From positions 190,115-254,114 of the forward strand of contig NZ_LMOI01000012.1 in assembly GCF_001423525.1 (NCBI RefSeq): a stretch of DNA of 64,000 nt. The letters are read 5' to 3'. Every line of letters begins with the position of its first letter. Position 1 is the first letter of the stretch. Shown here in pieces: positions 46,278-55,547 of the stretch. The position numbers and the translations under genes are program-made. Origin of the DNA: Arthrobacter sp. Leaf137 (lineage in GTDB: Bacteria > Actinomycetota > Actinomycetes > Actinomycetales > Micrococcaceae). A model generated the notes under the pieces. The model worked only from the letters and a program-made list of their open reading frames with translations. It was not told where the DNA came from and did no database searches.

Positions 46278-48809
46278 TTAACGGCCGAGCGCTGCCGCCA
46301 AATACGGCGCGGTGCGGCTCCCTGCGGCCTGCGCCACGTCTTCCGGCGAGCCGCTTGCCATGATCCGCCCGCCCTGGTCCCCTCCGGACGGTCCCAGGTC
46401 AATGACCCAGTCCGCGGCGGCAACAACCGACATCTCATGTTCGACCACCACCACCGTGTTCCCCGCGTCCACGAGGCCGTGCAACTGGGCCATCAGGAGC
46501 TGGACGTCCGCCGGGTGGAGGCCCGTGGTGGGTTCGTCCAGCAGGTACAGGGTGTGCCCGCGCTGGGCGCGCTGCAGCTCGGTGGCCAGTTTGATGCGCT
46601 GGGCCTCACCGCCGGAAAGTTCCGTGGCCGGTTGTCCCAAGCGAAGGTAGCCCAGCCCCACATCCTGCAGGCATTTGAGGCTGCGGGCCGCAGCGGGGAT
46701 CCCTGCCAGGAATTCTGCAGCGAGGTCCACAGTCATCCCCAGGACGTCGGCCACATTCCGGCCGAGGTACTCCACCTCCAGCGTGGCGGGGTTGAAGCGG
46801 GATCCTTCGCACTCGGGGCAGGGTCCGTAGCTCCCCGGGAGGAACAGGAGCTCCACCGCCACAAAGCCCTCGCCCTGGCACGTCTCACAACGGCCTCCCG
46901 CGACGTTGAACGAAAACCTGCCGGCGCCGAACCCCTTGGCTTTGGCGGCTTCAGTACCGGCAAACACTTTGCGGACAGCGTCGAAGAGACCCGTGTAGGT
47001 TGCCAGGTTGGAACGGGGCGTCCGGCCGATGGGTTTCTGGTCCACCGTGACCAGCCGGTCGATGGTGTTGCTCCCTTGGACAGCACCTACATGAAGATGC
47101 TCCGCCGGCCTGTCCCGTTCCCCTGCTGTTCTGTCCGTCGTGAGTGAGGCAGCCACCACATCGCCCAGAACGCGGCCAACAAGGGTGGACTTGCCGGAGC
47201 CTGACACGCCGGTCACGGCCGTCAGGACTCCCAGGGGGAAACGGGCGTAAAGCCCTTGCAGGTTGTGCTGCCGGACATCTTCCAGCTCCACCCACCCGGC
47301 CGGTTCGCGCGGTTCACCGTTACGGGACGGAGAAGGGGGTGCGGATAGCCGTGGCGCATCGAAGAGGAACGGGCGGGTCACGGATGCTTCAACCTCGGCC
47401 AGTCCTTCCACCGGGCCGCTGTACAGCACTTCGCCGCCACCTTCTCCGGCGCGGGGGCCAACGTCCACCAGCCAGTCTGCCCTGCGGACAACGTCCATGT
47501 TGTGCTCCACCACGAAGACAGAGTTGCCGGAGGACTTCAGTTGCTCCAGAACTTCCAGCAGCGGCTCCGCGTCTGCGGGATGGAGTCCTGCTGACGGTTC
47601 ATCGAGCACATAGATCACTCCGAACAGTCCGGAGCGCAGCTGGGTGGCGATCCGGAGCCGCTGCATCTCGCCCGGCGAGAGGGTGGGGGTTCCCCGGCCC
47701 AAGGCCAGGTATCCCAGCCCAAGGTCCAGGAGGACGTTGATCCGCTGGAGCAGGTCCCGTGTGATGGTTACGGCCACTTCGTTGGACTCACCGGAACGCT
47801 GGGTGCGTGATGCTGTGCCGGCCTGTGCCAGTTCGCTGGTCGGACGGACTGTGTCCGCCAGGTCTGCCAGCGGGAGTGCGTTGAACTCCGCAATGGTCCT
47901 GCCGGCGAAGGTGACGGCCAGTGCCTCGGGAATCAGCCCGGTGCCCGAACAGCGCCGGCAGGGACCTGACTCCATGAATGCCAGGACCCGGTCCCGCATG
48001 GAGGCGCTTTGCGAGTCGGCCAGCGTATGGAGCACGTAACTCCGTGCACTCCAGAACCGGCCTTTGTATGGCTTGGCAACCCGGTCACGCTGCGGGGTTA
48101 CCTCCACCACCGGTTGTTCCTCCGTAAAGAGAATCCAATCGCGGTGCTTCCTGGGCAGTTTGCGCCACGGGACGTCGACGTCGTAACCCAGGTGGGTCAG
48201 GATGTCCCGCAGGTTCTTTCCCTGCCACGCTCCGGGCCAGGCGGCAATGGCCCCCTCCCGGATGGTAAGGGACGGATCGGGGACCAGTGACTGTTCGGAC
48301 ACCGTGTGGGCAACTCCGAGGCCCTGGCATTCCCTGCAGGCACCTGCGGCCGTGTTGGGGGAGAAGGAGTCCGAGTCGAGCTGGCTGCTTCCCTCGGGGT
48401 AGGTGCCCGCCCGGGAAAAGAGCATCCGCACCGAGTTGGAAAGGGTGGTGACAGTTCCTACCGTGGAGCGGCTGCTCGCTGTGCCCCGGCGCTGTTGAAG
48501 GGCGACGGCGGGCGGCAGCCCGCTGATCAGCTCCACCTTCGGATTGTGGCCCTGTTGGATGAGGCGCCTGGCGTAGGGGGCCACGGACTCGAAGTAGCGG
48601 CGTTGGGCCTCGGCATAGATCGTGCCGAAGGCCAAAGACGACTTACCGGAGCCCGAGACGCCGGTGAAAGCAACGATGGCATCCCGCGGAACGTCCACGC
48701 TGACGTTGCGGAGGTTGTTTTCCCGGGCACCGCGGACACGGACAAAGCCGTCGGACTGGTGCGCCGGGGTGGTCAGCTGGGAATCATCAGTGTGCTGTTC
48801 GTTCGGCAT
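46278..48809 (-). CDS. UvrA-like ATPase without UvrB-binding domain (UvrA2 type)
   Basis: The 843-residue protein has two ABC ATPase cores with UvrA-type insertions. The first Walker A is GVSGSGKSS (about residue 51), the second GVSGSGKST (about 540), each with its signature helix (SPGEMQRLRIA, SGGEAQRIKLA). Zinc modules CRECQGLG, CRRCSGTG and CETCQGEG...CPECEG are present. Between RMLFSRAGTYP and FSPNTAAGAC the roughly 130-residue UvrB-binding domain of canonical UvrA is missing. So it is the UvrA2 class, linked to DNA damage or drug tolerance, probably not UvrB-dependent repair. A TAGAGT seven bases before the ATG suggests a leaderless mRNA. Confidence 0.9.
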   Translation of the reverse strand: MPNEQHTDDSQLTTPAHQSDGFVRVRGARENNLRNVSVDVPRDAIVAFTGVSGSGKSSLAFGTIYAEAQRRYFESVAPYARRLIQQGHNPKVELISGLPPAVALQQRRGTASSRSTVGTVTTLSNSVRMLFSRAGTYPEGSSQLDSDSFSPNTAAGACRECQGLGVAHTVSEQSLVPDPSLTIREGAIAAWPGAWQGKNLRDILTHLGYDVDVPWRKLPRKHRDWILFTEEQPVVEVTPQRDRVAKPYKGRFWSARSYVLHTLADSQSASMRDRVLAFMESGPCRRCSGTGLIPEALAVTFAGRTIAEFNALPLADLADTVRPTSELAQAGTASRTQRSGESNEVAVTITRDLLQRINVLLDLGLGYLALGRGTPTLSPGEMQRLRIATQLRSGLFGVIYVLDEPSAGLHPADAEPLLEVLEQLKSSGNSVFVVEHNMDVVRRADWLVDVGPRAGEGGGEVLYSGPVEGLAEVEASVTRPFLFDAPRLSAPPSPSRNGEPREPAGWVELEDVRQHNLQGLYARFPLGVLTAVTGVSGSGKSTLVGRVLGDVVAASLTTDRTAGERDRPAEHLHVGAVQGSNTIDRLVTVDQKPIGRTPRSNLATYTGLFDAVRKVFAGTEAAKAKGFGAGRFSFNVAGGRCETCQGEGFVAVELLFLPGSYGPCPECEGSRFNPATLEVEYLGRNVADVLGMTVDLAAEFLAGIPAAARSLKCLQDVGLGYLRLGQPATELSGGEAQRIKLATELQRAQRGHTLYLLDEPTTGLHPADVQLLMAQLHGLVDAGNTVVVVEHEMSVVAAADWVIDLGPSGGDQGGRIMASGSPEDVAQAAGSRTAPYLAAALGR

Positions 48810-51875: not shown

Positions 51876-52109
51876 TTAGACGGTCCTCTGGACCTGCATG
51901 ACCCGGCGGCGGAGCCAGAAACGACGGCCTCCGCCCATGTAGAGCTTGCTGCGCTCCAGTTCCCACTTGCCGTATTCGGAGTGTTCCACCAGGCGGCGGC
52001 GCGCCTCAGGCAGGGACTCGTTCGGACTTACCGTCAGCACGAGGTACTCGTACTGCCTCAAATAGTCCCGTTCCCGCTGGACCGAGCTGGTGAGAAATTG
52101 TTCCTTCAT
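51876..52109 (-). CDS. DUF5703 family protein
   Basis: The 77-residue protein starts MKEQFLTSSVQRERDYLRQYEYLVLTVSPNES and ends in a very basic RRFWLRRRVMQVQ strand. The sequence is that of DUF5703, a small family in actinobacteria, with a ferredoxin-like repeat suspected from its beta-alpha pattern. The ATG at 52109 has GGAGAG in front; a long frame upstream is a shadow of the opposite gene. It is divergent from the acidic-tail gene at 52149. Confidence 0.82.
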   Translation of the reverse strand: MKEQFLTSSVQRERDYLRQYEYLVLTVSPNESLPEARRRLVEHSEYGKWELERSKLYMGGGRRFWLRRRVMQVQRTV

Positions 52110-52148: not shown

Positions 52149-52412
52149 ATGAGCATCGATCCGCGTGTCGCGCTTTCGTCCCTGACCACCGCTTTGGAAG
52201 AACACCTTATAGCAGCATCGAACCGCCGCGGAGACGGTGACCCCTCCGTGGAGGCAGCCTTTTTTGCAGTGGCAGATGCATTCGAAGTTTATGAAGACGC
52301 CCTCTACGAGGCCTACAACGAAGTGACCCCGCTTCAGGTCTTCGACGACGAGGACGACGAAGACGAAGACAGCGACGTGGACGACGAGGATCTGGAGATC
52401 GTCGAAGAGTAG
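52149..52412 (+). CDS. Small protein with acidic tail
   Basis: The 87-residue protein has a helical N-terminal part (residues 1-65: LTTALEEHLIAASNRRG, FFAVADAFEVYEDALYEAYNE) and an almost purely Asp/Glu tail (about 66-87). It is widespread in the genus under names such as primosomal protein, without support. Acidic tails of this sort often mimic nucleic acid or bind basic partners; nothing more can be claimed. Divergent from DUF5703, convergent with the aldo/keto reductase. Confidence 0.75.
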   Translation: MSIDPRVALSSLTTALEEHLIAASNRRGDGDPSVEAAFFAVADAFEVYEDALYEAYNEVTPLQVFDDEDDEDEDSDVDDEDLEIVEE

Positions 52413-52432: not shown

Positions 52433-53368
52433 TTATGCCGCGGCGGACACGTCTTCCAGTGCCCGCGCAATCTCGGGCGGCAGCGGAGACAGCTGGGCTT
52501 CGAGGATTTCCTTGAGCTGGACAGGCGTCCGGGGACCCACAACGGCGGTGGCAACCCCATGTTGCGCCAGCAGCCATCCCAGCGCCACGTCCTGTGGCGT
52601 CCGGCCAAGGCCCTTCGCTGCGGTGCACACTGCTTCCACGGTGCGGGACGGTTTTTCCGCCAGGAACGGCTCAACGGAAGCCGACCCGCTGGCGGACGCG
52701 CCGCGTGAACCCGACGGAATGCTGCCCCGGTATTTTCCGGTGAGTACGCCCCGGCCAAGCGGTGCGCAGGCCATCAGGCCCATCCCTGCATCCTCCACGG
52801 CCGGTATGAGTTCAGCCTCGGGACTGCGGTGCAGAAAGGAGTATTCAGCCTGCGCCGCCACGAGGGGGAAGCCGGCCAGGACTGCTGCCTTCGCCGCCTG
52901 CCATCCGGTGTAGTTCGAGATGCCGGCATACCGGGCGCGGCCGCTGCGGACAGCAAACTCCAGGGCGGAAAGGGTTTCGTCCAGCGGAACGTTGCCGTCC
53001 CAGGCCTCGGCGAACCAGATGTCCACGTAGTCGGTTCCCAAGCGGGCAAGGCTCGCGTCAAGGCCGGTGAGCATCGCATTCCTGGACGTGTCGACGCCGC
53101 GCCGGCCATCCGGCGTCGTCATCCCCGCCTTCGTGGAGATGGTCAGCCCGGTGCGGGAGACGACGTCGCCCAGCAGCGAACCCAGCATCGCTTCGGACCG
53201 GCCATCGGCATATGACGCCGCCGTGTCCACGTGCCGGCCGCCGGAATTAAGGAAGGTCCTCAGCAGCTCCGAGGCGTCCTGTTCGTCGGTTTCCCCGCCC
53301 CACGTCATGGTGCCGAGCGATAAGGCTGAGACCCGCAATCCACTGTTGCCGACGTAACGCTGCTGCAT
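52433..53368 (-). CDS. Aldo/keto reductase with Glu in place of catalytic His
   Basis: The 311-residue NADPH-dependent reductase has the AKR (beta/alpha)8 barrel. Tetrad residues are Asp48 and Tyr53 (DTAASYADG), Lys80 (ISTKAG) and position 121 in VDIWFAEAWD, where relatives read VDLWQVHAWD: the His is Glu. NADPH-binding elements (GISNYTGWQ, AYSPLGRG equivalent CAPLGRG) are intact. The same His-to-Glu change defines steroid 5-beta-reductase (AKR1D), so double-bond reduction is possible. The ATG at 53368 begins the family-typical MQQRYVGNSG. It is divergent from uppP. Confidence 0.9.
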   Translation of the reverse strand: MQQRYVGNSGLRVSALSLGTMTWGGETDEQDASELLRTFLNSGGRHVDTAASYADGRSEAMLGSLLGDVVSRTGLTISTKAGMTTPDGRRGVDTSRNAMLTGLDASLARLGTDYVDIWFAEAWDGNVPLDETLSALEFAVRSGRARYAGISNYTGWQAAKAAVLAGFPLVAAQAEYSFLHRSPEAELIPAVEDAGMGLMACAPLGRGVLTGKYRGSIPSGSRGASASGSASVEPFLAEKPSRTVEAVCTAAKGLGRTPQDVALGWLLAQHGVATAVVGPRTPVQLKEILEAQLSPLPPEIARALEDVSAAA

Positions 53369-53420: not shown

Positions 53421-54254
53421 GTGAACTGGTTTGAGGTGGCCCTGCTGGGCCTTGTGCAGGGACTGACCGAATTTCTACCGATTTCATCAAGCGCGCACCT
53501 GCGGATCGTGGGGCAGTTCCTGCCCAACGCAGAGGACCCCGGAGCAGCCTTCACGGCCATCACCCAGCTGGGCACTGAAACGGCCGTCGTTGTCTACTTC
53601 TGGCGGGACATCGTCCGCATCGTCAAGGCGTGGGCGGGTTCCCTCGCCGGAAAGGTGTCCCGGCAGGACCCGGATGCCCGGATGGGCTGGCTGGTCATCC
53701 TGGGAAGCCTACCCATCATCGTCCTCGGGCTGCTGTTCCAGGACCAGATCGAATCGGTGCTGCGCAGCATGTGGATCGTAGCCACCATGCTGATCGTCTT
53801 CGGCCTGATCCTCGCCGTCGCCGACGCCGTCGGAAAGCAGGAACGGGACCTCACCCAGCTGACCTACAAGCACGGCATCCTTTACGGCTTTGCCCAGGCA
53901 ATGGCGCTCATTCCCGGCGTTTCCCGCTCCGGCGGCACCATCACAGCCGGCCTCCTGATGGGCTACACACGCGAAGCGGCCGCCCGGTACTCCTTCCTCC
54001 TGGCCATCCCTGCTGTCTTTGGCAGCGGCCTGTACCAGCTCTACAAGGTGGTATCCAAGGACGGCATCACGGGCCCTTACGGATTGCCCGAAACGGCGTT
54101 GGCCACAGTCATCGCGTTCGTGGTGGGTTACGTCATCATTGGCTGGTTCCTGAAGTTCGTGTCCACCCGCAGCTACCGGCTGTTCGTCTGGTACCGGATC
54201 TTCCTGGGCCTGGCCCTCTACCTGCTCCTCGGTTTCGGCGTCATCAGCGCCTAG
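53421..54254 (+). CDS. uppP: Undecaprenyl-diphosphatase UppP (BacA)
   Basis: The 277-residue membrane enzyme removes one phosphate from undecaprenyl diphosphate to recycle the cell-wall lipid carrier; loss sensitises cells to bacitracin. [21 protein letters not shown] at the N-terminus and [18 protein letters not shown] (about 160) are the two family motifs (with the Glu and the Ser/Arg of the active site). About eight membrane segments. GTG start, leaderless. mshC follows 15 bases later with its own promoter. Confidence 0.95.
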
Positions 54255-54269: not shown

Positions 54270-55547
54270 GTGAAATCCTGGACTTCCCGCCCCGTTCCAA
54301 CCCTGCCCGGCACCATGCCTGCCATCCGCTTGTTCGACACAGCAGCAGGCCATGAGGTGGTGCTGGAGTCCGGGGACCGGCCTTCCATGTACGTCTGCGG
54401 CATCACGCCGTATGACGCCACCCATATGGGCCATGCAGCCAGCTATGTCGCCTTCGACCTGCTGAACCGCGCCTGGCGGGACGCCGGCAAGGACGTGGAC
54501 TATGTCCAGAATGTTACGGACGTCGATGATCCGCTCCTGGAGCGCGCAACGGCCACCAACGTGGACTGGCGTGAGCTTGCGCAAAGCCAGATCGACCTGT
54601 TCCAGACCGACATGGAAGCACTGAACGTCCTGTCACCGGACCACTATGTTGGCGCGGTGGAGTCCATCAGCCTCATCGTGCCCGAGGTGGAACGGCTGGT
54701 CAGCCAGGGCCTTGCGTACACAGTTCCGGGAACCAACGGCGAGCCTGACGGAGACGTCTATTACGACGTCGAAGCGGCCGGAAAGCAGTCAGTGGCCCCC
54801 GAAGCGTGGAGCCTTGGTTCCATCTCGGGACTGTCCGAAAGCGAGATGCTTGAACTCTTTGCCGAACGTGGCGGGGACCCCGGCCGGTCCGGCAAGCGGC
54901 AGGCGCTGGATCCCTTGCTGTGGCGGGTGGCGCGGGACGGCGAACCCAGTTGGCCCGGTGCCAGCCTGGGTGACGGCCGCCCCGGGTGGCACATTGAGTG
55001 CACCGTGATTGCGCAGAAATACCTGCCCGCACCTTTCACCGTCCAGGGAGGCGGCTCCGACCTGATCTTCCCGCACCATGAAATGGGTGCAGGGCACGCC
55101 TACTCGCTGGCCGGGGTACCCCTCGCGAGGCATTACGCGCACGCCGGCATGGTGGGGCTGGACGGCGAAAAGATGAGCAAGTCCAAGGGCAACCTGGTAC
55201 TCGTGTCCAAGCTCCGTGCAGCGGGGGAGGAACCCGCGGCCATCCGCCTGGCGATCCTGGCCCATCATTACCGGTCGGACTGGTCCTGGACCGACGAGGG
55301 ATTCGCCGCAGCCAAGGCAGACCTGGCCGCCTGGCGCCGGGCACTGGATCATGCCCCGCGCGGGTCCGCGGGCCCTTTGGTGGAAGAGATGCGCGCAGCG
55401 TTGGCAGCCGATCTGGACGCTCCGGCGGCCGTCGCGGCGGTGTCGCGCTGGGCACGGCAGGCGAACGACGGCGGCGCCACGGCCAGCGCTTTGGACCAGG
55501 CCTTGGTGAGGGACGCCGTCGACGCCCTCCTGGGCGTTCAGCTGTAG
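54270..55547 (+). CDS. mshC: Cysteine:GlcN-inositol ligase MshC
   Basis: This 425-residue class I tRNA-synthetase-like enzyme ligates Cys to GlcN-Ins with ATP in mycothiol synthesis. [17 protein letters not shown] has the zinc-binding Cys and the HIGH-type motif (HMGH); KMSKSKG is the KMSKS motif; [15 protein letters not shown] carries other zinc and ATP contacts. Mycothiol-specific features separate it from CysRS: it is about 40 residues shorter and lacks the anticodon domain. GTG start with a leaderless -10 box. A strong terminator follows. Confidence 0.96.

Follow-up and report, generated by a model that had tools for sequence, protein, structure and literature searches.

Does a glutamate at the place of the catalytic histidine turn a bacterial aldo/keto reductase (AKR) into a reductase of carbon-carbon double bonds? 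This question is raised by a gene in the window, i.e. the whole stretch of 64,000 nucleotides analyzed here, because an initial annotation had pointed to the same change in the vertebrate steroid 5β-reductase AKR1D1. As related bacteria have several different residues at this place or, most simply, have lost the gene, it looks like one step of drift away from the usual chemistry and not like a purpose-built double-bond reductase.

The AKR gene and its catalytic residues

The gene (positions 52433..53368, minus strand) encodes a protein of 311 amino acids with the N-terminus MQQRYVGNSG, which matches the AKR superfamily profile PF00248 over the barrel (207 bits vs. a Pfam cut-off of 24). Its AF2 model is an AKR barrel (pLDDT 91.7, pTM 0.90) with 560 PDB matches at E ≤ 0.001 in Foldseek. 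According to the translation, three residues of the catalytic tetrad, Asp48 (53225..53227), Tyr53 (53210..53212), and Lys80 (53129..53131), are intact as initially annotated, and the codon GAG at 53006..53008 (all on the minus strand) places a Glu at position 121 within the local motif IWFAEAWD. The protein therefore has the tetrad D48, Y53, K80, E121 in place of Asp-Tyr-Lys-His (DYKH). The segment WFAEAWD aligns without a gap under YQMHAWD of 7utf and DepB, and a His is found at position 121 in all four alignments with solved AKRs that are shown (7utf, DepB, 4xk2, and 9nz6), which confirms that Glu replaces the tetrad His. Of the 20 PF00248 matches in the genome, DYKH is found in 19, and the window AKR is the only exception. 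This, together with the gap-free alignment, indicates that the substitution is real and not the background state.

A substitute His elsewhere in the protein is ruled out: the other histidines are His46, His180, and His270 only, position 121 is gap-free against the solved AKRs, and no His of another segment is brought into the tetrad position by the alignment. His46 corresponds to the first His of HIDTA in paralogs from the same genome, and since these paralogs also keep the tetrad His, it is no substitute. Among the 229 orthologs described below, His46 is found in 22 rows, all of them without His121 (13 of the 14 Glu rows and nine of the 44 Gln rows), a co-occurrence that most simply reflects shared descent. 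A pseudogene is likewise ruled out by the full-length frame without internal stop and by a dN/dS well below 1 in the clade.

At the expected nicotinamide-stacking position, a role that we assume by analogy with Kvβ2, the protein has Cys201 (52766..52768, minus strand). Trp is found there in 209 of the 229 orthologs, and Cys only in the window AKR and in row L117. Ser201 is found in 14 rows (L096-L098, L101, L160, L161, L165, L169, L174, L180, L181, L183, L185, and L186), all with DYKH, of which 10 are named Streptomycetaceae and four group with them. Because of these Ser201 rows, Cys201 does not prove that the site is dead.

Gene neighborhood and orthology

The gene lies between a DUF5703 gene and an acidic open reading frame (ORF) on one side and uppP, mshC, PAC2, and HAD genes on the other. 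The undecaprenyl-diphosphatase gene uppP (53421..54254, plus strand) is divergent from the AKR gene with 52 bases separating the start codons, and is followed by mshC for mycothiol cysteine ligase (54270..55547, plus strand; TIGR03447, 651.7 bits, cut-off 485.1). Both have matches in 114 of 114 Micrococcaceae loci. The DUF5703 gene (51876..52109, minus strand) is matched in 101 and the acidic ORF of 87 amino acids (52149..52412, plus strand), which has no Pfam or NCBIfam match, in 102 of these loci; flanks of 1.5 to 4 kb per locus were considered for all neighbor counts. Outside the Micrococcaceae, 121 of 132 loci match uppP, M20, mshC, or DUF5703 (uppP in 69, M20 in 89, and DUF5703 in 58), and none of eight tested neighbors is found in eight loci.

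Judged by synteny and best match to the class-wide AKR beside uppP/mshC, the window AKR belongs, as a syntenic ortholog, to an AKR group that is widespread in Actinomycetes. Within the class, 185 of 246 genomes have a match to it (E ≤ 1e-60), and within the family, 47 of 149 do (E ≤ 1e-70). The nearest named relative found is a protein of Pseudarthrobacter chlorophenolicus Mor30.16 (row L117; 96% identity), which likewise has Glu. No steroid or enone pathway is present among the annotated neighbors, and literature matches listed for mshC, aldo-keto reductase, and undecaprenyl include none that is relevant according to their titles and the beginnings of their abstracts.

Elsewhere in the window (46278-48809, minus strand), a UvrA-like protein of 843 amino acids is encoded, which scores above the cut-off of TIGR00630 and below that of PRK00349, and has about 120 fewer residues ahead of the main match than the model. 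It is perhaps a paralog of the UvrA2/DrrC type.

Variation at position 121

The family alignment, which had been suggested as a check on the extent of the substitution, comprises 246 loci that yielded 229 distinct proteins after 17 duplicates had been merged; Glu is found in 14 of them. These rows are a non-random set of nearest relatives, top matches in the class, and 80 named loci selected with two peptide patterns. The group referred to as Micrococcaceae is the family of the window genome, equated via its nearest named relatives Arthrobacter and Pseudarthrobacter. Over all rows, the tetrad reads DYKH in 150, DYKQ in 40, DYKE in 14, and EYQP in seven cases, in addition to fifteen rarer states of one or two rows each. 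In the 107 rows from other orders, DYKH is found in 103, DYKQ in three, and DFKH in one, and His121 is thus present in 104. Among the 17 rows from other Micrococcales, eight have DYKH. The 105 Micrococcaceae rows comprise 39 with DYKH, 32 with DYKQ, 14 with DYKE, and 20 others, and the residues at position 121 are His, Gln, Glu, Asp, Asn, and Pro. The statement that relatives read WQVHAWD was therefore right in part: orthologs with DLWQVHAWD do exist, but beyond the Glu clade, the closest relatives have Gln in the motif WFAQAWD.

On a FastTree phylogeny of the 229 rows, calculated with the tetrad columns masked and including several long rows as well as a join of L202-L231 flagged as often false, position 121 requires 30 parsimony changes. 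Within the 105 Micrococcaceae rows, 20 changes are counted vs. nine elsewhere, compared with 3185 vs. 5835 changes for all columns together. On an IQ-TREE phylogeny of 70 rows from chosen genera, without the three Pro rows L143, L158, and L168, position 121 changes 13 times, whereas columns 48, 53, and 80 change zero, two, and zero times. Columns 116, 118, and 124 change zero times. With 51 of 311 columns in this tree changing at least as frequently, column 121 does not stand out as the most variable. Among the tetrad residues in the 70-row tree, lability is thus located at the His position.

The Glu clade of the window

Glu121 needs two changes on the 229-row tree, most simply one gain in a Pseudarthrobacter-like clade of 13 rows and one in the single row L054, to which the L127 protein is identical. 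The 13 rows lie inside a 25-row clade that consists of Gln and Glu rows only (support 100 in the 229-row and 99 in the 70-row tree); the support for the Glu clade itself is 85 and 81 only. As Gln rows surround the Glu clade, the last step in the lineage of the window was most likely from Gln to Glu. The codons at position 121 (CAC or CAT for His, CAG in 43 of 44 cases for Gln, and GAG or GAA for Glu) fit a path from His via Gln to Glu in which each step is a single base change.

Asp48, Tyr53, Lys80, and Gln173 are kept in all 14 Glu rows, which suggests that some form of catalysis probably remains under selection. Arg takes the place of Met21 in 11 of the 14, and none of the other 229 rows has Arg there. 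These 11 rows form the sister clade of the pair of the window AKR and L117, which retain Met21. On this topology Arg21 most simply arose once, which leaves its link with Glu121 no more than suggestive. A pairing of these two residues would give Glu121 a charge, in contrast to Glu120 of AKR1D1, which is protonated.

For the analysis of selection, pairs were limited to a dS of 0.15-1.0 and a dN below 0.15, since distant pairs inflate the medians by saturation. The median dN/dS of the AKR in these close pairs is 0.110 for His (145 pairs), 0.102 for Gln (69), 0.066 for Glu (49), and 0.097 for Pro (21 pairs, namely those among the seven EYQP rows by protein identity, with the other five Pro rows outside). 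Accordingly, the retained copies in close pairs are under purifying selection. For uppP in the same pairs, the values are 0.041 for Glu, 0.066 for Gln, and 0.070 for Pro. All are below those of the AKR, which by this measure is somewhat less constrained than uppP in these three groups, yet far from neutral. In 48 His pairs, uppP has 0.150 and the AKR 0.100, a comparison given no weight here because distant rows of this set may carry another uppP. The low dN/dS shows that the retained copies are useful, which simple decay does not explain.

The Pro clade and gene absence

The 12 rows with Pro121 (L143, L158, L168, and L193-L201) form one clade (support 99) with further changes in the active site. 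Lys80 is replaced by Gln in 11 rows and by Leu in one, Ala81 by Gly in all 12, Asp48 is lost in 10, and Gln173 is replaced by Asp or Glu in 10. Ten residues on the expected ADP side of the cofactor site (G205, R206, G207, L209, K212, Y213, R222, G278, R280, and Q284) are retained in 12 of 12 rows, and G207, L209, K212, Y213, G278, R280, and Q284 are invariant in the five tabulated groups, which cover 204 of the 229 rows. These contacts to NADP(H) are presumed ones, which we assigned by motif and by analogy with Kvβ2, and not from a complex of the window AKR. On this assignment and the model, the predicted binding residues for the ADP half of NADP(H) have been conserved.

A total of 102 family genomes lack a match at E 1e-70, and 20 of these, each from another genus, were analyzed for absence of the gene. 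In every one of the 20, uppP is present (L267-L286), and in none of them was an AKR found beside it with six AKR queries at E 1e-3 in flanks of up to 1.5 kb per side. The acidic ORF is near uppP in 17 of the 20, and the genus of one no-match genome (G085) includes other genomes with the AKR gene. The absences are most simply explained by losses of the AKR gene from a conserved site. The correlation between absence of the gene and change of the residue is one at the family level only and carries no causal order.

Proposed role and alternative explanations

The reading that we favor, and consider rather likely from the sequences and the model, is that the window AKR is an NADP(H)-binding AKR from a lineage in which the His-dependent reaction became dispensable. 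The gene would have been inherited vertically at its syntenic site from an ancestor that most likely had the full DYKH tetrad. In Micrococcaceae, the reaction needing His121 would then have lost importance. As the comparison shows, the residue was replaced many times, in the lineage of the window most simply by Gln and subsequently by Glu, with the direction deduced by parsimony. One clade has further lost Lys80 and mostly Asp48, and no AKR gene is present at the conserved site in other lineages. The window AKR is predicted to bind NADP(H) and may catalyze at most a slow hydride transfer driven by Tyr53 and Lys80 without His, comparable to Kvβ subunits and possibly with a substrate that differs from the ancestral one. 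We think such a His-independent transfer, as in Kvβ, is most likely its biochemistry.

A protein that keeps the fold and the ADP-ribose site and has lost its chemistry altogether, i.e. a pseudoenzyme or redox sensor binding NADP(H), is an unlikely alternative. It would agree with the Pro clade, in which His and Lys80 and mostly Asp48 and Gln173 have gone, the ADP-side residues have stayed, and the close pairs among seven rows have a dN/dS of about 0.1. The window AKR itself has Cys201 instead of Trp, but Ser201 next to an intact tetrad indicates that this position is not diagnostic. Moreover, pure binding would not require the Asp, Tyr, and Lys that are invariant in the Glu rows.

Equally improbable is a neutral change, by which the enzyme would tolerate His, Gln, or Glu alike and remain the same carbonyl reductase. 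The repeated alternation of His and Gln among close species in the 70-row tree, next to otherwise nearly fixed tetrad residues, is what such tolerance would produce, but the retention of His121 in nearly all rows from other orders argues against it. In poppy COR, the substitution H119F at the corresponding site left only trace reduction, as described in an excerpt of PMC8524200.

The proposal of an AKR1D1-like switch, by which a protonated Glu121 would polarize an enone carbonyl and make room for hydride transfer to the β-carbon, is distinctly doubtful, and ene reduction by the window AKR is possible without specific support. The precedent is real: Glu120 of AKR1D1 is described as protonated in an excerpt of PMC11354470, single substitutions at the tetrad His position interconvert 5β- and 3β-reductase according to an excerpt of PMC8524200, and AKR1C9 H117E and H117A are further examples from these two sources. 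The same residue is found at the same place with Asp48, Tyr53, and Lys80 intact, and is common to a 13-row clade under purifying selection. However, neighboring lineages have Gln or His at this labile site and Gln rows enclose the Glu clade, which is unlike a conserved new function. The Arg21 present in most Glu rows would, if paired, ionize Glu121 (the window AKR has Met21), the annotated neighbors offer no pathway for such a substrate, and the protein is not close to AKR1.

That the tetrad was rebuilt more than once at one syntenic locus away from carbonyl reduction, with Glu121 for C=C as in AKR1D1 and Pro121/Gln80 for C=N as in the dehydroreticuline reductase of poppy, giving a natural series from ketone to ene and imine reductases, is highly improbable.

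If the favored reading of a dispensable His-dependent reaction is true, the locus provides a fine-grained natural record of an enzyme leaving its canonical mechanism. One chromosomal site would hold a full tetrad, single changes to Gln, Glu, Asp, or Asn, a constrained clade with multiple losses, or no AKR at all. It would then be a ready test bed for the role of the AKR histidine, and would caution against deducing function from a single substitution.

Comparison with known systems

The closest solved proteins in sequence and fold are the deoxynivalenol-pathway AKRs 7utf and DepB (8hwn) with 33-36% identity (E 3e-51 and 7.9e-50 by sequence; 7utf_A, Foldseek E 8.6e-29 at 36% identity). The link of 7utf to deoxynivalenol is given by the title of the structure entry, and for DepB we presume the role in this pathway. 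Both differ from the window AKR by the His at the tetrad position. The open-licence literature searched yielded no bacterial series of tetrad states at a single syntenic locus.

Kvβ subunits (AKR6A), in which the tetrad His is presumably replaced by Asn158, have a fold similar to the model of the window AKR (Foldseek rank 18 onward, 31% identity). The window AKR scores 120.8 bits with the Kv_beta model TIGR01293 of NCBIfam, vs. a cut-off of 365.4, and is thus not a member of this family. For Kvβ, slow turnover and tight binding of NADP+ are described in an excerpt of PMC9317154.

The bacterial Pro clade is changed at the same two positions as the 1,2-dehydroreticuline reductase (DRR) domain of poppy REPI, an imine reductase with His replaced by Pro and Lys by Met according to an excerpt of PMC8524200. 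DRR differs in being a plant AKR that reduces C=N bonds. The Pro clade is not the window's own clade, and the parallel is one of sequence alone.

AKR1D1 is absent among the best 60 of 68 PDB matches at E ≤ 1e-5 by sequence, so that this comparison gives no membership in AKR1, and in an excerpt of PMC3290569 it is mentioned only in the reference list. The type of substitution, Glu for the tetrad His, is already known from AKR1D1 and is shared by the window AKR. AKR1D1, however, belongs to another AKR branch, in which Glu is a functional signature, whereas here it occupies a labile site.
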